From contig JAURLI010000030.1 of the NCBI GenBank assembly GCA_030831315.1, positions 1 through 47,613 on the forward strand: a stretch of DNA of 47,613 nt, written 5' to 3'. The notes beneath the pieces were generated by a model that was given only the letters and a program-made list of their open reading frames with translations, did not search any database and was not told where the DNA came from. Shown piece by piece: positions 3,753 to 38,144 of this stretch; the first letter of the stretch is position 1; the number at the start of each line of letters is the position of its first letter. The translations under genes were made by a program, and so were the position numbers. Source of the stretch: Alphaproteobacteria bacterium (lineage in GTDB: Bacteria > Pseudomonadota > Alphaproteobacteria > SMXQ01).

Positions 3753-4676
3753 CTAGTTTCCCGGGCGTGCCTGGGGATCGCGCTTCAGGCGATGCAGCAC
3801 ATCGTCGAGCTGTTCCAGCGTCTCGAAGTGGATCGAGATATCGCCCGTCTCGCCTTTCAGATCGATCGATACCTTGAGACCAAGCAGCAGCGACAGGTCG
3901 CGCTCGAGCGCACGCGTGTCGGCGTCCTTCGCCGTTGCCGGCATTGCTGATTTCTTCGCGCCCGACTTGCGCGCCCGCGGCGTCTTGCCTGACTGAGCAA
4001 GACGTTCGGTTTCGCGCACGCTGAGGCCTTTCGCCACGACCTCTTCGGCAATGGCGAGCGGATCCGGTGCATTGAGCAACGCGCGCGCGTGGCCCGCCGA
4101 CAGGCGGCCGTCGTCGAGCATCGACTTTACTTTTTCCGGCAGATTGAGAAGCCGCATCATGTTCGCAACGTGCGATCGGCTCTTGCCGACGGCACGCGAG
4201 AGGTCTTCCTGGGTGTGGGAGAATTCCGCCATCAGCCGCTGGTAACCCTCGGCCTCTTCAAGGGGCGTCAGGTCCTGGCGCTGGATATTTTCAACGAGCG
4301 CGACTTCCAGCGCTTCGGCATCGGAAAGCTCGCGCACGACGACGGGAAGTTCATGCACCTGCGCCAGTTGCGCGGCACGCCAGCGGCGCTCGCCCGCGAT
4401 GATCTCGAATTGGTCGGCTTCGCCTTCAAGCCGCCTTACAAGCAGTGGTTGCAGGACGCCTTTTTCGCGGATCGAATTGACGAGAGTGCCGAGCGCTTCG
4501 TCGTCGAAGCGACGGCGCGGCTGAAAGCGGCCCGGTCGCAACTGGCCGACGGCAACCTTGCGCGTCGTGCGCACGCGGTCGAGTTCGGCGTAGTCCTCTT
4601 TTTCCTCACCGAACAACGCAGCAAGGCCGCGTCCGAGATTGCGCTTCTCGCGTCCCTGTCCGCTCTGGTCACTCAT
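3753..4676 (-). CDS. parB: Chromosome-partitioning protein ParB
   Basis: CTP-dependent DNA clamp that loads at parS and spreads to build the partition complex. The 307-aa protein begins with the basic, Gly-rich KRNLGRGLAALFG segment typical of chromosomal ParB, contains the nucleotide-binding motif IAGERRWRAAQLA, a helix-turn-helix region (GKSRSHVANMMRLL), and a C-terminal dimerisation domain. The ATG overlaps the parA stop by 8 bp. Two perfect parS targets lie upstream at 6131-6146 and 8158-8173. Chromosomal rather than plasmid type, judged by its place after rsmG and parA. Confidence 0.97.
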   Translation of the reverse strand: MSDQSGQGREKRNLGRGLAALFGEEKEDYAELDRVRTTRKVAVGQLRPGRFQPRRRFDDEALGTLVNSIREKGVLQPLLVRRLEGEADQFEIIAGERRWRAAQLAQVHELPVVVRELSDAEALEVALVENIQRQDLTPLEEAEGYQRLMAEFSHTQEDLSRAVGKSRSHVANMMRLLNLPEKVKSMLDDGRLSAGHARALLNAPDPLAIAEEVVAKGLSVRETERLAQSGKTPRARKSGAKKSAMPATAKDADTRALERDLSLLLGLKVSIDLKGETGDISIHFETLEQLDDVLHRLKRDPQARPGN

Positions 4677-5541
4677 GATTCTCGGCCTCCCGCCGGATGA
4701 CTTCGCGCGCGAGCTGGATATAGGCCTGAGAGCCCGGGCAGCGCAGGTCGTAGAGCAGCACCGGCTTGCCGTGCGACGGCGCTTCGGAAACGCGGACGTT
4801 GCGTGGAATGACGGTGTTGTAAACTTTTTCGCCGAGGAACCCGCGCACGTCGGCGGCCACCATGTTGGTCAGGTTGTTGCGCCCGTCCGCCATGGTCAGC
4901 ACGACGCCCTGCAGGTCGAGCGACGGATTGAGATTGCGCTTGATGCGATCGATCGTGCGCAGAAGATGGGTCAGACCCTCGAGCGCGAAGAACTCGCATT
5001 GCAACGGCACCAGCACGGCATCGGCGGCGACGAGTCCGTTGAGGGTCAGAAGGTTCAGCGACGGCGGGCTGTCCACCAGCACGTAATCGTAGTCTGAGGC
5101 CACCGTCGTCAGGGCATCGCGCAGACGATACTCGCGCCGGTCCATGTCGATCAGTTCCAGCTCTGCCCCGGCGAGGTCGACCGTGCTCGGCACGAGATCG
5201 AGATTGGGCACATCGGTGTGCTGGGTCGCTTCATGCACGCTCGCCCGACCGATCAGCAGGTCATAGGTGCCGCGCTCGCGCCGGTTATGGCCGACGCCAA
5301 GCCCGGTCGATGCGTTGCCCTGGGGATCGAGATCGACCACCAGCACCCTTGAACCGACGGCGGCCAAGGCCGTCGCCAGGTTGATGGCGGTGGTCGTCTT
5401 GCCGACGCCGCCCTTCTGGTTGGCGATGATGAGCACCCGCGGACGGCGCGCCGAAGCGCGCGCAAGGCCGTCGTCCGACGCTTCCACCGCGGCGGGGGCG
5501 CCGGTACCCGGCAAGGTAGTTTCGGAAACGGAACTAATCAC
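4669..5541 (-). CDS. parA: Chromosome-partitioning ATPase ParA
   Basis: Walker-type ATPase (MinD/ParA family) that moves ParB-parS complexes over the nucleoid. The 290-aa product has a 30-odd residue variable N-terminal extension, then the deviant Walker A motif KGGVGKTTT, the DLDPQGNAS segment and VLVDSPPSL (Walker B). The start is a GTG overlapping the rsmG stop by 8 bp; there is no clear Shine-Dalgarno sequence, consistent with translational coupling. Order mnmE-mnmG-rsmG-parA-parB is the classical origin-proximal arrangement. Confidence 0.96.
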   Translation of the reverse strand: MISSVSETTLPGTGAPAAVEASDDGLARASARRPRVLIIANQKGGVGKTTTAINLATALAAVGSRVLVVDLDPQGNASTGLGVGHNRRERGTYDLLIGRASVHEATQHTDVPNLDLVPSTVDLAGAELELIDMDRREYRLRDALTTVASDYDYVLVDSPPSLNLLTLNGLVAADAVLVPLQCEFFALEGLTHLLRTIDRIKRNLNPSLDLQGVVLTMADGRNNLTNMVAADVRGFLGEKVYNTVIPRNVRVSEAPSHGKPVLLYDLRCPGSQAYIQLAREVIRREAENHE

Positions 5542-6178
5542 GGCGGATATCCGTCAGGCGGAGGATGCTGGCCCCGGCCTCGGTCAGGCTCGGAAAGCTC
5601 TCAACTTCCATTGTCCAATTTTTGCCGGCAGCGGTCAATTCTTCCCCCGACTGCCGGCCCTTCAGCAACAAGAGCGAGAGATTATCATGCCCTTGCCCTA
5701 TAAATCCCTGAATTACCGCGAGAATTTTATCTATAGGCGCGACTGCCCGGGCGCTGATGACATCGACGGGAAAGGCTTCCAGGTCCTCAACCCGGGCGTT
5801 ATGGACCTCCACCCGGACGCCGGCAAGGCGGGCTGCCTCGCGCAGGAAGGCACATTTGCGAGCATCGGATTCGACCAAGTGCACGGTCAGGGGCTGGTTG
5901 CCCGCATCTGCCATGATCGCCAGGACAAGGCCGGGAAATCCCCCTCCTGAGCCGAAATCCAAAAGAACCCGAGGCACCCCGGCCCCGCCCGGCGGCGGCA
6001 GATAGCGGTAAAGCTGGGCGGAATCCAGGAAATGGCGGCGCCACAAATCACGCAGAGTGTCGGGCGAGACAAGATTGATGGTCTTCTGGAATTTGACCAA
6101 GGCCTCGGCATAGGCCTCGAAGCGCCTCAATGTTTCACGTGAAACATCGACGGCAGCGGCAAAAGCCTCGGCCGTCAT
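5534..6178 (-). CDS. rsmG: 16S rRNA (guanine-N7) methyltransferase RsmG
   Basis: SAM-dependent methyltransferase forming m7G527 (E. coli numbering) of 16S rRNA. The 214-aa product carries the SAM-binding glycine motif [14 protein letters not shown] and downstream [18 protein letters not shown] chose the ATG at 6178 because it overlaps the mnmG stop as ATGA; a TTG further upstream at 6202 is possible. A perfect parS site (6131-6146) is embedded in the first codons and encodes the conserved VSRET stretch, so the protein sequence there is constrained by the DNA site. Confidence 0.95.
6131..6146. other. parS: parS site 1, inside rsmG
   Basis: Perfect 16-bp palindrome TGTTTCACGTGAAACA, identical to the bacterial chromosomal parS consensus bound by ParB. 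It lies in the 5' coding part of rsmG, where it encodes part of the VSRET motif. parA and parB follow directly downstream. Confidence 0.93.
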
Positions 6179-8157: not shown

Positions 8158-8173
8158 TGTTTCACGTGAAACA
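8158..8173. other. parS: parS site 2, between mnmE and mnmG
   Basis: Second perfect copy of TGTTTCACGTGAAACA, 2.0 kb from the first. It lies in the short gap between mnmE and mnmG and so is intergenic. Its exact match to the consensus and the neighbouring parAB genes make it a confident ParB-loading site. Confidence 0.93.
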
Positions 8174-9671: not shown

Positions 9672-11682
<2,011 letters not shown>

Positions 11683-11702
<20 letters not shown>

Positions 11703-12204
11703 GTCTGGATTTACCGGCGCCGATCCCGTCTACCGCCTGACCGTCGCAAGCCCCGTCGGCGCGCTTACACTGTTCGAGCAATCGGGCGCCATCACCCATC
11801 TTCTGTGGGCGGCAAGCAACCGCCTTCGCAATGGCCGCCCGACACCTTTGCTGGCCGCCGCCCGGATCCAGCTCGAGGATTATTTCGCGGGCAGGCTCAA
11901 ACGCTTTCACCTGCCCCTTGCCCCTGCCGGCACCGAATTCCAGTGCCGGGTCTGGGCCGCGATCCGGGAAATCCCGGCGGGAAAGACCCTGACCTATGGC
12001 GAGCTTGCCCGGCGGCTCGACAGCGGGCCGCGCGCCGTGGGTACCGCCTGCGGCGCCAACCCGATCCCCATCATCATCCCCTGCCACCGGGTGCTGGCAG
12101 CGGGGGGGCGCCTCAACGGCTATTCAGGACAAGGCGGCATCGTGACCAAGAAACGCCTGCTCGATCTCGAAGGCGCCCTTGAAGGCCGCCGCTCAAGCGG
12201 CTAA
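11683..12204 (+). CDS. ogt: Methylated-DNA--protein-cysteine methyltransferase
   Basis: Suicide DNA-repair protein that transfers alkyl groups from O6-alkylguanine (and O4-alkylthymine) to its own cysteine. The 173-aa product has the C-terminal ATase domain: [20 protein letters not shown], the arginine-finger helix region, and the active-site PCHRV with Cys134. GGAGGA lies 6 nt before the ATG, and the gene overlaps the end of the YyaL-family gene. There is no Ada N-terminal zinc domain, so this is an Ogt-type protein. A damage-inducible site was not recognised. Confidence 0.95.
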
Positions 12205-12246
12205 GACTGGGTTAAAGCAAAAACCCCAGAAATCAGGGAGTTTCCC

Positions 12247-12948
12247 ATGCCTGACATCACCATCGCCGCCCAGGGCGGCGGCAGCTTTTCCGCCTACCTC
12301 GCCATGCCGTCGAAGACGCCTGCGGCAGGCCTCGTGCTCATCCAGGAAATCTTCGGCGTGAACAAGGTCATGCGCGACCTCGCCGACAATTTCGCCAGCC
12401 AGGGCTATATCGTCGCCTGCCCGGATCTCTTCTGGCGCATCGAGCCGGGCGTGCAGATTACCGACAAGTCCCAGGCCGAATGGGACAAGGCCTTCGCGCT
12501 GATGAACAAGTTCCTGCCCGACTTCGCCAAGGGCGTGGGCGACATCCAGTCGACCATCAGCCATATCCGCGGCATGAAGGAATGCACGGGCAAGGTCGGT
12601 ACCGTCGGCTATTGCCTGGGCGGTTCGCTCGCTTACGCGACCTCCTTCTTCACCGATTCGGATGCTTCCGTCGGCTACTACCCGGTGCAGATCGACGACT
12701 TCCTGGGCCGGGTTCCCAACATCAAGAAGCCCCTGATGCTGCACATCGCGGAAAACGACGGGTTCTGCCCGGCCGAATCCCAGAAGAAGATCCGCGACGC
12801 GCTTGCCACCAACAAGCTGTGCACATCACACACTTATTCCGGTGTCGATCATGCGTTCGCGCGCATCGGCGGAGCCAACTACAACGACGCGGCTGCGAAA
12901 CAGGCTAACGATCGCACAAGCGCCTTTTTCAAGCAGCATCTCGCGTAA
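12247..12948 (+). CDS. Dienelactone hydrolase family protein
   Basis: Alpha/beta hydrolase of the dienelactone hydrolase family, which opens lactone or other ester-type substrates in the cytosol. The 233-aa protein shows the nucleophile elbow GYCLGG (Cys123), the acid ENDGFCP (Asp171) and the base VDHAFAR (His202), a complete Cys-Asp-His triad. No aromatic-ring cleavage genes lie nearby, so a role in chloroaromatic breakdown is not supported; a general detoxifying esterase is equally possible. It follows ogt by 42 bp and precedes the quinone reductase by 10 bp. Confidence 0.9.
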   Translation: MPDITIAAQGGGSFSAYLAMPSKTPAAGLVLIQEIFGVNKVMRDLADNFASQGYIVACPDLFWRIEPGVQITDKSQAEWDKAFALMNKFLPDFAKGVGDIQSTISHIRGMKECTGKVGTVGYCLGGSLAYATSFFTDSDASVGYYPVQIDDFLGRVPNIKKPLMLHIAENDGFCPAESQKKIRDALATNKLCTSHTYSGVDHAFARIGGANYNDAAAKQANDRTSAFFKQHLA

Positions 12949-12958
12949 GGAGATTTTC

Positions 12959-13933
12959 ATGGTCAAGGTCGTGCGGGTTCACGCTTATGGCGGACCCGAA
13001 GCACTGTCTTACGATGACGTCGAACTGGGTCAGCCGGGGCCGGGTCAGGCACTGATCAGCCAGACTGCCGTCGGGCTCAACTACATCGATACCTATCATC
13101 GCACCGGCCTTTACAAGCTGCCGTCGCTGCCGCACCCGATCGGCGTCGAAGGTGCCGGCATCGTCGAGGCCGTCGGCCCCGGCGTCACCAACGTCAAGCC
13201 GGGCGACCGCATCTGCTACGGCTCCATCCTTGGCGCCTATGCGCAAAAGCGCATCGTGCCCGCCGACCGCCTGCTTGCACTGCCCGAAGGTATCAGCGAC
13301 GAAGTGGCTGCCGGGATCATGCTCAAGGGCATGACGGCGCGTTATCTCGTGCGTGTCACCTATCCGATCAAGAAAGGCGACACTGTCCTGATCCACGCCG
13401 CCGCCGGCGGCGTCGGCCTGATCGCCTGCCAATGGGCGAAGCATCTCGGCGCCACCGTCATCGGCACGGTTGGCTCGGAAGAAAAAGCGGCACTCGCGCG
13501 CGCGCACGGCTGCGATCATCCGATCAACTACAACCGCGAGAATTTCGTCGAAAAGGTGAAGGAGATCACCGGCGGCAAGGGCCTGCCCGTGGTCTACGAT
13601 TCGGTCGGCAAGGATACCTGGGAAGGATCCCTCGACTGCCTCGCGCCGCGCGGCCTGATGGTGTCCTTTGGCAACGCCTCGGGCCCGGTTCCCCCGGTTT
13701 CGATCCTGGTGCTGTCGCAGAAGGGCTCACTGTTCCTGACCCGCCCCATCCTCGCCCATTACATCGTGACGCGCGCGGAATACGAAGAGACGGCGAACGA
13801 CCTGTTCAACGTCGTCAAGTCGGGCGCGGTCAAGATCGAGGTCAACCAGCGCTACGCGCTGAAAGACGTCGGCCAGGCGCATATCGATCTCGAGAACCGC
13901 AAGACCACCGGTTCGACGATCCTGATTCCATAG
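12959..13933 (+). CDS. qor: NADPH:quinone oxidoreductase (QorA type)
   Basis: Zinc-free medium-chain dehydrogenase/reductase that reduces quinones or alpha,beta-unsaturated carbonyls with NADPH. The 324-aa sequence has GLNYIDTYHRTGLY typical of quinone oxidoreductase 1, the nucleotide-binding AAAGGVGLIACQWAK, and no structural zinc cysteines. AAGGAG precedes the ATG at 9 nt. It is only 10 bp after the dienelactone hydrolase, so the two are probably co-transcribed. A strong terminator follows at 13952-13983. The exact substrate cannot be read from sequence. Confidence 0.93.
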   Translation: MVKVVRVHAYGGPEALSYDDVELGQPGPGQALISQTAVGLNYIDTYHRTGLYKLPSLPHPIGVEGAGIVEAVGPGVTNVKPGDRICYGSILGAYAQKRIVPADRLLALPEGISDEVAAGIMLKGMTARYLVRVTYPIKKGDTVLIHAAAGGVGLIACQWAKHLGATVIGTVGSEEKAALARAHGCDHPINYNRENFVEKVKEITGGKGLPVVYDSVGKDTWEGSLDCLAPRGLMVSFGNASGPVPPVSILVLSQKGSLFLTRPILAHYIVTRAEYEETANDLFNVVKSGAVKIEVNQRYALKDVGQAHIDLENRKTTGSTILIP

Positions 13934-15961: not shown

Positions 15962-17020
15962 TTATCGCGGACCACCGCAACCCGCCATCGCCGCGGGGCA
16001 GATGCGCCCGCCCGGGCCGGACATCACCCCCGTCCCGCTCGCGGCCTGAACCGCAAGACGGCCAAGCCCGGCGATGAAGTCTTCGCTGACGCCCGCCGCC
16101 GGAACGCGAACATAGGCTGTCGCCCCGGCACTTTCGGCCAGGTGCCGGTATTCGATATCCAGCTCGACCAGCGTTTCCGAATGTTCCGAAACGAAGGCGA
16201 CGGGCACGATCACGATTGCCGCACCATCCCGGGCTGCCCTGGCGATTTCGGCATCGGTGGCCGGCCCGATCCATTCAAGCGGCCCGACGCGGGACTGGTA
16301 GCAGGTCACCACTTCCGCGCTTTCGAGATGCCGGGATGCCCGCAAGCGTTCACAGACAGCCGCGACGCTCTGTTCCACCTGGAACTGGTAGGGGTCGCCC
16401 GCGGCAATCACCCGTTTCGGCAGTCCGTGGGCCGAGAACAGCACACGCAACGGTGACCCGGGTGCTTTCGCACGGGCCTCGTTGATGCCCGCCGCGGCAA
16501 GTCGTGTCACTGCCGAAATGAAACCGTCCTCGCCCGGATAGCAGCACACGCGCGTCGGCTTTGCGAAAATTCCGGCCAGCCGCGCGGCGCGGTCCCAATC
16601 GTCGAAGGACGACGCCGTGGTGGTGGTCGAAAACTGCGGATAGAGCGGCAGCAAGACGATCCGTTCGGGTCCGAAGGCTTTGACCTTCGCCGCCGCCTCG
16701 TCGGCAAACGGATGCCAGTAGCGCATGGCGATCACGACCTGCCAGTCGTGTTCGGGCGCCACGGAACCCAGCGATCTTTTCAGCGCCGCCGCCTGGGCTT
16801 CGGTCTCCGGCAGGATCGGCGAACGCCCACCCATCTGTTCATAGATTTTGCGTGCAAGCGGCGCGCGGCGCGACGAAATCAGCCGCGCCAGCATCCAGCG
16901 AACCGGTCCCGGCGCACGAATGATGGCGGGATCGGAAAACAGGTTCTTCAGGAACGGCTGCACCGCATCGAGGCTGTCGGGCCCGCCCAGATTGAACAGG
17001 ACGACGGAAACCCGGCTCAT
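15962..17020 (-). CDS. hemH: Ferrochelatase
   Basis: Inserts Fe2+ into protoporphyrin IX to make heme. The 352-aa protein begins SRVSVVLFNLGGPDSLDAV, typical of HemH, and has the catalytic-region FSAHGLPKRVI with the conserved His, and FVSEHSETLVELD with the second His and Glu. I chose the ATG at 17020, which overlaps the hemE stop as ATGA and has GAGGGA upstream; an in-frame codon at 17041 would add 7 residues. It belongs to the hemE-hemH-hemJ run. Confidence 0.96.
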   Translation of the reverse strand: MSRVSVVLFNLGGPDSLDAVQPFLKNLFSDPAIIRAPGPVRWMLARLISSRRAPLARKIYEQMGGRSPILPETEAQAAALKRSLGSVAPEHDWQVVIAMRYWHPFADEAAAKVKAFGPERIVLLPLYPQFSTTTTASSFDDWDRAARLAGIFAKPTRVCCYPGEDGFISAVTRLAAAGINEARAKAPGSPLRVLFSAHGLPKRVIAAGDPYQFQVEQSVAAVCERLRASRHLESAEVVTCYQSRVGPLEWIGPATDAEIARAARDGAAIVIVPVAFVSEHSETLVELDIEYRHLAESAGATAYVRVPAAGVSEDFIAGLGRLAVQAASGTGVMSGPGGRICPAAMAGCGGPR

Positions 17021-18048
17021 GCTGATTTGTCCCTCACGCAATCGACGAGGGCGGCGACATGATCGGGCGGCGTCGACGGCAACACGCCATGGCCGAGATT
17101 GAAAACGAAGGCGCCTTCGTTGAGTTTTGCGCAGATCGCGCGGGCTGCTTCTTCCATCGGTTTGCCGCCGGTAATCAGCATCACCGGATCGAGATTCCCC
17201 TGAACCGTCACGTTGCGCTGCAAGGCGCGCGCTGCCCAGTCACAGGGAACGCTCGCGTCGATTGAAATCGCATCAACGCCGGTTTCGCGCGTAAACGGTT
17301 CGTAAAGCACGCCCGCACGGTTTGGAAAACCGATGATCGGCACGCCCGGACAAGTCGCCTTGACCCTCTCGACGATGGTCTTGATCGGCTTGATCGACCA
17401 GTCCCAGAAAGCCTTGTCCGGCAGCACCCCAGCCCAGCTGTCGAAAATTTGCAGCGCTTCCGCTCCCGCTTCGACCTGGGCGACAAGATGGGCGCTTGTC
17501 GCTTCGACCAGCATATCGATCAGTTTCTGAAAACCTTCGCGATCGCCGTAGGCCCATGACTTGACCCGGGCAAAATCCTTCGATGACCCACCTTCGACCA
17601 TGTAGGTCGCCAAGGTCCAGGGAGCGCCACAGAAGCCGATCAAGGCAACATCCTGGGGCAGCCCCGCCTTGACCCCGGCTAACGCCTCGTAGACCGGTAC
17701 CAGCCTCTCCACGACGGCATTGACGGACAACTTCCCCACTGCGGACGGATCCGCCAGCGCTTCAAGCACCGGCCCCTTGCCTTCCTTGAAGGCGACCGGT
17801 TGCCCCATCGCATCGGGAATGACCAGGATATCCGAAAATATGATTGCGGCATCGAGCCCGAAACGCCGGATCGGCTGAAGCGTCGCTTCGATCGCCATGT
17901 CCGGGGTGTAGCAGAAGTGCAGGAAATCGCGCGCCTTCGACCTCAACTCCCGATATTCGGGCAGGTAGCGTCCTGCCTGACGCATCAGCCATATCGGCGG
18001 GACGTCGAAGACTTCTCCCTTCAATGCCTCGATCAGTGGTTTGCTCAT
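17017..18048 (-). CDS. hemE: Uroporphyrinogen decarboxylase
   Basis: Decarboxylates the four acetate side chains of uroporphyrinogen III to coproporphyrinogen III. The 343-aa protein carries the signature PPIWLMRQAGRYLPEYRE and the second signature GFCGAPWTLATYMVEGG. Length is typical. It is the first gene of the leftward heme cluster and flanks the non-coding region 18049-18484. In Caulobacter and Rickettsia hemE flanks the replication origin, which is a main reason for the oriC call here. Confidence 0.97.
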   Translation of the reverse strand: MSKPLIEALKGEVFDVPPIWLMRQAGRYLPEYRELRSKARDFLHFCYTPDMAIEATLQPIRRFGLDAAIIFSDILVIPDAMGQPVAFKEGKGPVLEALADPSAVGKLSVNAVVERLVPVYEALAGVKAGLPQDVALIGFCGAPWTLATYMVEGGSSKDFARVKSWAYGDREGFQKLIDMLVEATSAHLVAQVEAGAEALQIFDSWAGVLPDKAFWDWSIKPIKTIVERVKATCPGVPIIGFPNRAGVLYEPFTRETGVDAISIDASVPCDWAARALQRNVTVQGNLDPVMLITGGKPMEEAARAICAKLNEGAFVFNLGHGVLPSTPPDHVAALVDCVRDKSA

Positions 18049-18085
18049 TTCACTTCGCTCATGCCTCGTTGCCCAACTCTCTTCC

Positions 18086-18100
18086 TTAACATGAATCTAA
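18086..18100 (+). promoter_or_regulatory. CtrA-like half-site pair in putative oriC
   Basis: TTAA, seven bases, then CTAA: one mismatch from the CtrA consensus TTAA-N7-TTAA used to silence the Caulobacter origin. It also lies 37 bp upstream of the hemE start, so it could belong to the hemE promoter instead. A single near-match in an AT-rich stretch may be chance. Confidence 0.3.
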
Positions 18101-18313
18101 TATAAAAAGGTTGTAGTGGTAGTTGGACCACCGAGTCATGGGGATTATTCCTGTTCCACATTATGGCGTACCTGAATAAGGGCTCCCGGCTTCGATGTCT
18201 GCATCTGTGCGTGGCTCGGGGATGGAATGCCAGCACGGGCCTGAAACCTTGTCTGTGAACCGGACATTCAAAATGTGAATCCGGTGAATAACAGGCCCTC
18301 TCTTTTTACTTTC

Positions 18314-18328
18314 CCCGTGATTCACGGG
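18314..18328. repeat. 15-bp palindrome in putative oriC
   Basis: CCCGTGA, one central T, TCACGGG: a perfect 7-bp inverted repeat in the middle of the non-coding region. It resembles a binding site for a dimeric protein. No T-run follows, so it is not an intrinsic terminator. Confidence 0.6.
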
Positions 18329-18402
18329 ATCACTTTAAGTTTTCCACGCGCTCATAACTCGCATATGGAATCAGCCGCAGTGGTTGTCGAATAAGGGGGT
18401 CT

Positions 18403-18426
18403 GTGGACAACACCCGACTTGTCCAC
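18403..18426. repeat. Inverted pair of DnaA-box-like motifs
   Basis: GTGGACAA, 8 bases, TTGTCCAC: a perfect 8-bp inverted repeat made by two DnaA-box-like sequences facing each other. In RNA it could form a hairpin just ahead of maf; as DNA it fits a paired initiator-binding site. Confidence 0.6.
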
Positions 18427-18484
18427 CCTTTGCCGAAATCCGGCCGGGGGTTATCTTGCCCCTGTCCACAAGCCCGGTATCCAT

Positions 18485-19108
18485 ATGAACGCTCCCGCAA
18501 CAGGAAAATCGCCACCACCCGTGGTGCTCGCTTCGGCCAGCACTGTGCGTGCCACGCTGCTGCGTTCGGCGGGAATACATCCTGAAATTGTCCCGGCCCA
18601 TGTCGATGAGGACGAAATCAAGCGCGCCTTCCGTGCGGAAGGACGCAGTGCGCTTGATGCTGCCATCGCCCTCGCGGAGGTCAAGGCCATGCGCATTTCA
18701 CGCCATCACCCGGGAGCACTGGTCATAGGGGCAGACCAGATCCTTGTCTGCGGGGCCGAATGGTTCGACAAGCCTGTCGATCTCGATCATGCGCGCGCCC
18801 ATCTCCGCACCCTGCGTGGCAAGGCCCATGGGCTTGCCACCGCGGCGGTCGTCGTGCGCGACGGCCAGCGAATCTGGCATCACGGCGCGACACCGATGCT
18901 GACGATGCGCGACTTTACCGACGGTTTCCTTGATGACTATCTTGCCCGCGAAGGCGATGACGTCCTGACGTCAGTCGGCGTCTACAAGCTCGAAGGGCGC
19001 GGCGTACAATTATTCTCGCGCATAGACGGCGATTTCTTCACTATTCTCGGATTGCCGCTTTTGCAGCTTCTGGGGTTTCTGCGCGAACACGGGGTCGTTG
19101 GCACATGA
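18485..19108 (+). CDS. maf: Maf-family nucleotide pyrophosphatase
   Basis: Maf/YhdE-type nucleoside triphosphate pyrophosphatase that removes non-canonical or modified nucleotides. The 207-aa protein has the N-terminal VVLASAS motif (the usual PRR is replaced by TVR), the conserved IGADQILV with the catalytic Asp, and [11 protein letters not shown]. The ATG at 18485 fits the family N-terminus; a TTG at 18419 would add 22 residues that run through the DnaA-box-like region. It is the first rightward gene after the putative origin and overlaps aroE by 4 bp. Confidence 0.92.
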
Positions 19109-32434: not shown

Positions 32435-32579
32435 GGATACGCACACTATATTAATCGCCTTTTAAGCGAATCCCCCTAAATCCAATCAGGAACACATCCT
32501 GCATTTTATGTTCCGTGCGGCCAGCCGCACCGGCAACCGGGATGAAAGTACTGGGGCATTCCGGAAAACGGAGACGATT

Positions 32580-36462: not shown

Positions 36463-37428
36463 TCATCGGATCCGGCGTGGGTGCCGTTCGGCCACACGCC
36501 GTTCTATGGCGTCCCAGATCTGCGTTTCCAGCGTCACGCCGTCGAACCGGTTTATTTCCTGAATGCCCGTGGGCGAGGTGACATTGATCTCGGTCAGGTA
36601 ATCGCCGATGACGTCGATGCCGACGAAAACCAGGCCCTGCTCGCGCAACGTGGGACCTATCGCGGAACAAATGTCGCGTTCGCGGCTGGTCAGTCCGGAT
36701 TTTTCGGCGCGCCCGCCGACATGAAGATTGGCACGCGCTTCGCCGCCCGCAGGCACGCGGTTGACCGCGCCGGCGGCTTCGCCGTCGATCAGGATGATGC
36801 GCTTGTCACCCTTGCGCACCTCTGGCAGGTATTTCTGAACGACGATCGGTTCGCGATAAAGCTGGGTGAAAAGCTCCAGCAACGCGTTCAGGTTCTCGTC
36901 ATCGGGCCTGATGTGAAACACGCCGGCGCCGCCGTTGCCGAACAGCGGCTTGATGATGATGTCGCCGTATTCCTTGCGGAAGTCGAGCACCGACATGCGG
37001 TCCGAGGTAATCAAGGTCGGCGGCATCAGATCGGCAAAATGGGTGACGAATAGTTTTTCCGGCGCATTACGCACGCGCACGGGATCGTTGATCACAAGCG
37101 TTTCCGGATGCACGTGTTCCAGAAGATGCGTCGCCGTGATGTAGGCCATGTCGAAGGGCGGATCCTGGCGCATCAGCACGACGTCGAGCGCGGCGAGATC
37201 GATGACTTCTTCCTTGCCGGTCTCAAAAGGCTTCGAGGGATCGCGCCGCGCGGTGAAGCTGCGCGCGCGCGCTGTAACGCGTCCCTGAGTCAGTGAAAGG
37301 TCCTGCGGCACATAATGGAAGAGCGCGTGTTTGCGCTTCACCGCCTCCAGCGCCAACATGTAAGTGGAATCCGCCGCCGGGTTGATCCGGTCGAGCGGGT
37401 CCATCTGAAAGGCGACGGCAAGCGACAT
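36463..37428 (-). CDS. gshB: Glutathione synthetase
   Basis: ATP-grasp ligase joining gamma-glutamylcysteine and glycine to glutathione. The 321-aa protein begins [20 protein letters not shown], has [29 protein letters not shown], the ATP-grasp loop [15 protein letters not shown], and ends with the metal-binding [26 protein letters not shown]. Length is typical. It is in the same direction as the dolP-like, yraN and rsmI genes and 95 bp from the first of these. Confidence 0.97.
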
Positions 37429-37523
37429 CTTGAAAACTCGCGAAAGTCTATGAATCCGGGGCTGAGCCTAGCACGGACGCGGTACCGCTTTATACGGCAA
37501 GCGACAGTCAGGGTCCCCGAGGC

Positions 37524-38144
37524 TCAGGTCTTGCGCCTCGGGTCGCTTTTCAGCCAGACATGATTGACCACGCGCTGCACGTATTCGACGTTCCGCGCGT
37601 AGTTGATGACCTTGTCCAATTCCTTCTTGTCCTGGGCGACGCCGAACAGATATACGGTGTGGCGCACGGTCTCGACCGTGTAATTGATCCCCATGATATC
37701 GCGGTCGAACAAAATCTTTCCGCGCAGTTGCGCCGAAATCCAGGTATCGCGCGTGAAGGTTCCGGTTTCACCTTTCGGATCGACGAGGATTTCGTTGATG
37801 ACCTCGCGCACGCCGCGCACCGACCACGCCCGGCGCAGGATCTCCGCACGCTGGTCCTCCGTTCTTACAATACCGGTCATCAGCACGCGGCCTTCATAGA
37901 CCGCCGCACCAAGATGCGCGAACAGCGACTGGTCGTAATCGAGCCAGCTGTGATTGATCTCCGCATGGATACGCGAATCGACGATGGCGATGTCGAGGCC
38001 GCGTTCCTGCATCCCTGCGGTCGCGGCGCTGGCCCCGCCGCCGACCAGGGCTTCAGCGCAGCCGCCAAGCGACAGCGGCATGGCTACCAGCGCAAGAAGG
38101 ACCAAACCGGTCCGTAACCGGTGCGATATGGAACGGGAAATCAT
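37524..38144 (-). CDS. dolP: BON-domain lipoprotein (DolP/YraP-like)
   Basis: Periplasmic lipoprotein with two BON domains; in E. coli DolP helps maintain the outer membrane. The 206-aa product has a signal peptide ending in lipobox LGGC, first BON domain about DIAIVDSRIHAEINHSWLDY to INEILVDP, second about TWISAQLRGKILFDRD to VVNHVWLKSD. GGAGGAG lies 6 nt before the ATG at 38144; the longer frame to 38192 lacks this. The rsmI-lpoA-yraN-dolP neighbourhood of E. coli is partly kept here, without diaA, which supports the name. Confidence 0.87.
   Translation of the reverse strand: MISRSISHRLRTGLVLLALVAMPLSLGGCAEALVGGGASAATAGMQERGLDIAIVDSRIHAEINHSWLDYDQSLFAHLGAAVYEGRVLMTGIVRTEDQRAEILRRAWSVRGVREVINEILVDPKGETGTFTRDTWISAQLRGKILFDRDIMGINYTVETVRHTVYLFGVAQDKKELDKVINYARNVEYVQRVVNHVWLKSDPRRKT

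Follow-up and report, generated by a model that had tools for sequence, protein, structure and literature searches.

The non-coding gap between the divergent genes hemE and maf, positions 18049-18484 of the window (the whole analysed stretch of 47,613 bp), is very probably the chromosomal replication origin, oriC, of this alphaproteobacterium; we put the probability at roughly 0.94. The preliminary description of this DNA had proposed the same, and its proposal gains support from synteny with Caulobacter, DnaA boxes, parS sites, an AT-rich region, islands of conservation in the family and the GC-skew minima of relatives. It had missed a (GTN)5 run, GTTGTAGTGGTAGTT, at 18110-18124, which lies beside the AT-rich stretch and is followed by a tandem DnaA-box slot. 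The chance that this run acts as a DnaA-trio whose middle base is relaxed appears to be about even. The window corresponds to contig C8 in a draft genome (2.70 Mb, 89 contigs, 99% complete). The gap measures 436 bp, and its limits had been given exactly, the start codon of hemE ending at 18048 and the ATG of maf beginning at 18485. An Rfam search of the gap gave no match.

17017-18048, minus strand: hemE, left flank of the putative origin (TIGR01464, 8e-122)
18049-18484, no strand: hemE/maf intergenic region, putative chromosomal oriC (box cluster, synteny in relatives, no Rfam RNA)
18485-19108, plus strand: maf, right flank of the putative origin (NF002690, 1e-62, and TIGR00172, 2e-30, both under the cut-off)

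Comparison with NCBIfam confirmed the gene order and divergence described before, with parB-parA-rsmG-mnmG-mnmE and rho-hemJ-hemH-hemE on the left side and maf-aroE-coaE-dnaQ-secB on the right side of the gap. Plus-strand genes for a methylguanine methyltransferase, a dienelactone hydrolase and a zinc alcohol dehydrogenase (11425-13933), located between mnmE and rho, break the leftward gene run on that side of the origin. The dnaA gene is found on a different contig (C4). An origin beside hemE has been described in this class before: the experimentally mapped origin of Caulobacter, Cori, adjoins hemE, and the Rickettsia origin was predicted likewise (PMC1914354). The gap shares with Cori of Caulobacter crescentus and with the predicted Rickettsia and Wolbachia origins the hemE flank, the DnaA boxes, the AT-rich stretch and a non-coding length of about 400 bp (PMC1914354). 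Cori lies between hemE and COG1806 (DUF299), whereas maf is the direct neighbour here; this fits the finding that a COG1806/DUF299 (PpsR) gene (PF03618) was not found anywhere in the genome. The COG1806/DUF299 flank is a trait of Caulobacter and Rickettsia, and Wolbachia also lacks it (PMC1914354).

The closest relatives by HemE were alphaproteobacterial metagenome-assembled genomes and Rhodospirillales-like genera with at most 61% identity. Genomes for close comparison were one from the same genus and nine from the same family. In relatives, hemE-hemH-hemJ are found on one side of the gap and maf-aroE on the other, and this neighbourhood is kept across the class. Three family members (L004, L005, L025) carry about 1 kb of additional sequence on the right-hand (maf) side of the gap.

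The ParABS system, said before to be 10-12 kb away, is indeed present with two perfect parS sites at 10 and 12 kb from the gap. These are the only parS sites of the genome, no other having at most one mismatch in the 14-nt core.

3753-4676, minus strand: parB (TIGR00180, 9e-57)
4669-5541, minus strand: parA (ParA-family matches)
6131-6146, no strand: parS TGTTTCACGTGAAACA, perfect match
8158-8173, no strand: parS TGTTTCACGTGAAACA, perfect match

Within the window GC skew is weak. Its cumulative curve dips slightly to a local minimum near 21 kb and falls equally low at the contig end, and owing to these two equal lows it neither supports nor refutes an origin in the gap. A skew of the organism's own genome cannot be drawn from an 89-contig draft. 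The preliminary description had named a skew minimum at another place, for instance next to dnaA, as the result that would speak against its reading; two closed relatives, whose skew was taken from sampled stretches, showed the opposite. In G156 the minimum (37,235) falls within hemE (36,978-37,991). In G019 the skew is negative before the hemE region and positive after it, and the cumulative minimum (3,616,825) is about 12 kb from hemE (3,604,131-3,605,141) in a flat stretch. The nearly flat skew of G038 was uninformative. Most commonly bacteria have their origin next to dnaA, Bacillus and numerous other phyla included, and on these general grounds such a location had to be considered, but it is exceedingly improbable here. 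The 16 kb around dnaA (C4:70000-86000) contain seven scattered box-like sites, never two within 436 nt, and in G019 dnaA is at contig position 653, whereas the skew minimum lies close to hemE, at 3.617 of 3.741 Mb. This location was rejected, as the box cluster is absent there.

Six DnaA-box-like 9-mers were counted in the gap, compared to a mean of 0.45 in shuffled sequences, and none of 1000 dinucleotide shuffles reached six. The gap is thereby the densest 436-nt stretch of the window for such 9-mers. The count of five TCCAC cores given before proved exact (TCCAC/GTGGA; shuffle mean 1.09, 0/1000 reaching five), and a perfect TTATCCACA box is absent from the gap, as had been stated. The suggestion that the origin uses an unusual box was right in part: the boxes are variants, e.g., TTGTCCACA and TAATCCCCA, which relatives have in this gap as well, while the unusual part is the trinucleotide element that had escaped notice. 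The inverted repeats reported before were mostly short and imperfect and were rejected as an origin feature; of these repeats, only the head-to-head boxes at 18402-18427 are meaningful.

18130-18138, minus strand: trio-proximal DnaA-box slot, degenerate here (from the alignment; ATATCCACA or similar in several family members)
18139-18147, minus strand: trio-adjacent DnaA box TAATCCCCA, two mismatches to TTATCCACA
18152-18160, plus strand: DnaA-box-like TGTTCCACA (9-mer pattern match)
18283-18291, minus strand: box-like TTATTCACC, aligned with TTATCCCC in relatives, in the conserved island 18274-18293
18340-18348, plus strand: DnaA-box-like TTTTCCACG (9-mer pattern match)
18402-18410, minus strand: DnaA box TTGTCCACA, the best in the gap (one mismatch; conserved head-to-head pair)
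18419-18427, plus strand: DnaA box TTGTCCACC, head-to-head partner of the 18402-18410 box (conserved pair)
18462-18470, plus strand: distal DnaA box CTGTCCACA near maf (9-mer pattern match)

A box 411-415 nt from hemE, comparable to the distal box at 18462-18470, is also present in L004, L005, L025 and L006. An alignment of the gap from ten family members revealed conserved islands at 18084-18147, 18274-18293, 18400-18427 and 18454-18470. In the strongest island, the AT-rich stretch and GTTGTAGTGGTAGTT are followed, after a short spacer, by 9-mer slots in tandem; counted from the trio run, a TGTGGAT-like one lies at +5 and YGGGGATTA at about +14. The former 9-mer was found in L008, L009, L011 and L012, and the latter is recurrent.

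The AT-rich stretch mentioned in the preliminary description is real: by nearest-neighbour energies, no 40-mer of the window is less stable than 18085-18124. A GAATC sequence, i.e., a GANTC site of the CcrM type, occurs in this stretch and is found about -13 to -18 from the trio run in eight of ten family members (shuffle mean 1.06, 0/1000). Among 20 other alphaproteobacteria, GANTC was present in the 40 nt before the run in eight, with 1.9 expected. The genome encodes, at C31:20550-21683, a CcrM-like methylase that contains a RAMA domain (NF050803, 2e-185, under a Caulobacter-based cut-off).

18084-18109, no strand: AT-rich DNA unwinding region (DUE), part of the window's least stable 40-mer and of an island conserved in ten family members
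18086-18100, plus strand: weak CtrA-like TTAA-N7-CTAA, pattern match only, overlapping the GANTC site
18093-18097, no strand: GANTC (GAATC) CcrM site within the DUE, at a conserved position in the family
18110-18124, plus strand: DnaA-trio-like run GTTGTAGTGGTAGTT; seen from the boxes and including the G that follows, it is 3'-GTT GAT GGT GAT GTT-5'

Unlike Cori, which has five CtrA sites, the gap contains a single weak site of the type TTAA-N7-TTAA with one mismatch (18086-18100), and GcrA (PF07750) was not found in the genome. Some predicted hemE-linked origins have no CtrA site at all (PMC1914354). A single IHF-type site with one mismatch, at 18101, overlaps the trio run. Elsewhere in the window, a perfect TTAA-N7-TTAA is located at 32451-32465 in a stretch of low G+C content (about 57% at 32-34 kb versus about 64% in the rest of the window), which possibly contains regulated or recently acquired genes.

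The trio run was present at the same place and on the same strand in all ten family members examined; that of L025 is one trio shorter. In the nine runs that were compared, all G and T positions are invariant, and the third GTN position alone varies (T, A, G). The sequence GGTTGTNGTNGTNGTTG occurs once in the 2.7-Mb genome, and a (GTN)5 run appeared in the gap in 0/1000 shuffles. The architecture is that of TAATCCCCA, 13 nt including the degenerate box slot (spacer limit 16 nt) and then five GNT trios. The published trio rule of at least three consecutive NAN trios after a box did not match the element, and at most two middle-A trios follow in a row after any box; a GNT rule does match.

The invariance of two bases out of three with a free third one resembles the conservation of a coding sequence, and the run could be read as polyvaline. 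This reading was rejected and is very improbable. The frame comprises 7-109 codons from stop to stop, usually without a start codon ahead of the run, its continuation is not conserved, and the spacing from run to box varies by non-multiples of three.

The gap might also be merely the divergent promoter region of hemE and maf with transcription regulated by DnaA, the origin being elsewhere. The divergence of these genes agrees with this explanation, as do DnaA boxes at the ribonucleotide reductase gene (C79:50851-51187), which represent a known kind of DnaA-regulated promoter. We nevertheless consider it improbable. No sigma-70-like promoter was found in the gap, where a promoter/terminator scan, a weak test, remained at chance level, and the combination of six boxes, trio run and DUE was found at no other site examined. 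Furthermore, both parS sites are on the same contig, the skew minima of closed relatives are at or near hemE, and the trio run and the DUE are kept though the right-hand gene of the gap differs among relatives.

In the genome-wide list of TTNTCCACA, only three other places had close pairs, on contigs C79, C11 and C81; with few boxes and no trio run alongside, they were rejected as alternative origins. On C79 (G000:C79:50851-51187, L225), a tandem TTATCCACA/TTTTCCACA is located upstream of the ribonucleotide reductase gene (PF02867) and a TTGTCCACA box inside it, which looks like DnaA-controlled nucleotide supply. The inverted perfect TTATCCACA pairs in short gaps at G000:C81:7674-7697 and G000:C11:35456-35511 (L226, L224) may serve to titrate or reactivate DnaA or may be simple hairpins.

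Runs of the same type were found upstream of hemE in many other alphaproteobacteria. Across the class, a GTN score of 9-10 was obtained in 30 of 110 hemE-upstream regions, compared to one on the opposite strand and four in the 700-1400 nt upstream. Among 289 class genomes, the pattern ATCCACA-N2-12-(ACN)4 was present in 35, and in eight of these at most 300 nt upstream of hemE (G273, G025, G011, G018, G219, G003, G156, G236); matches in G193, G268 and G039 are on the hemH side of hemE and therefore were excluded from this count. The pattern AATCCCC-N8-20-(ACN)4 was present in 29 of the 289 genomes, with 16 matches within about 160 nt upstream of hemE (G246, G233, G094, G026, G072, G193, G268, G213, G282, G028, G039, G041, G003, G000, G179, G105), and G193, G268 and G039 were counted solely for this upstream TCCCC-box match. 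With genomes of a few Mb, chance alone would place a match no more than 300 nt from a given gene in about one case in ten thousand. Many matches of both patterns fall elsewhere in their genomes, away from hemE. The run is not universal: among the 110 regions, no clear run was seen upstream of hemE in many other lineages, such as the Rhodobacteraceae loci, most Rhizobiales loci and one Caulobacteraceae metagenome-assembled genome. Strings of tandem boxes and GNT trios resembling ATCCACA-NTTNTC-(NAC)n occur at G020:C58:4587, G016:C76:5894, G293:C1:174486 and G106:C18:56546, in G020 and G016 on another contig than the listed hemE; they are candidates for the origin in alphaproteobacteria whose replication does not start at hemE.

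The element resembles the DnaA-trio/basal unwinding system of Bacillus subtilis in the succession of a box pair, a short G+C-rich spacer, a trinucleotide run and an AT-rich stretch, in the strand relative to the boxes and in the guanine that comes first in every trio (PMC6669920, PMC8287927, PMC10721633). It differs in the middle base, which is A in B. subtilis (published consensus 3'-GAT-5') and T, A or G here, in this order of frequency, and in the location of the origin, at dnaA there and at hemE here. In elements with a GTN score of at least 9, a selection independent of the base after GT, this base, the middle one of the trio, was T in 63, A in 46, G in 26 and C in 8 cases. In B. subtilis DnaA, Asn187 binds the middle adenine and Arg202 together with Glu228 the guanine, and a middle T or G reduces strand separation and growth; the three residues are not universally conserved (PMC10721633). 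The DnaA protein of the organism studied here (C4, L154:6278-7672; TIGR00362, 3.5e-174) has Tyr, Lys and Glu at the positions of Asn187, Arg202 and Glu228, and the same residues were found in all 26 aligned alphaproteobacterial DnaA proteins. The guanine contacts are kept as R202K and E228. In the DnaA alignment, Thermotoga maritima has Asn/Arg and Aquifex aeolicus Gln/Arg at the same pocket positions.

The relaxation of the middle base coincides with the loss of Asn187, its reader, and this match is suggestive; as the residue state is class-wide, it counts as one evolutionary correlation and not as many. Alphaproteobacterial DnaA might read a relaxed trio 3'-GNT-5' because Asn187 is replaced by Tyr throughout the class with the Arg202 (to Lys)/Glu228 pair kept, and hemE-linked origins would have drifted to a middle T, A or G accordingly; in addition, opening may be coupled to the methylation state through the conserved GANTC (CcrM) site of the melting region. 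We regard this proposal as evenly balanced between right and wrong. The trio variant is apparently new in the searchable literature, leaving aside the supplement of PMC8287927.

Alternatively, the gap could be oriC with the GTN run serving as a single-strand DUE motif of the Escherichia coli type (TTGT-like) or as a low-stability spacer. At the E. coli DUE, with its single-strand motifs TTGT and TTATT, T/G-containing strand repeats likewise lie beside an AT-rich region, and the TTG repeats of the run hold 5'-TTGT-3', the single-strand DnaA motif of that system (PMC10797057). The middle base also favours this possibility, since it is not consistently A and T or G there lowers activity in B. subtilis (PMC10721633). 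The repeats here are, unlike those of E. coli, in strict three-base register, with G and T held beside tandem boxes; TAG triplets are common among the repeats, and the order of box, spacer and trinucleotides as well as the strand fit the basal unwinding system (PMC8287927). On balance we consider the E. coli-type motif or spacer unlikely, though clearly less so than a promoter or a coding function.

For a relaxed DnaA-trio, the arrangement of the elements suggests the following course of initiation, in which origin activity, DnaA binding and strand opening are inferred from sequence. DnaA would bind the weak boxes throughout the gap, among them the box at 18139-18147 on the trio side and the two head-to-head boxes at 18402-18427. 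From the trio-adjacent box, a DnaA oligomer would grow toward hemE on the plus strand (18110-18125), with every subunit occupying a single 3'-GNT-5' trinucleotide of the run, and would melt the adjoining AT-rich region 18084-18109. The helicase would be loaded there and forks would leave both ways, and ParAB with the parS sites 10-12 kb to the left would segregate the copied origin.

The authors of the survey of basal unwinding systems suspected that there are deviant trios without a middle adenine (PMC8287927). The conserved candidate trios and the matching change in the DnaA pocket bear on this point. If correct, the relaxed G-any-T repeat would extend the DnaA recognition rule worked out in Bacillus. 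The analysis would place oriC in a further alphaproteobacterial lineage and may provide a sequence signature of the melting site for many hemE-linked origins.
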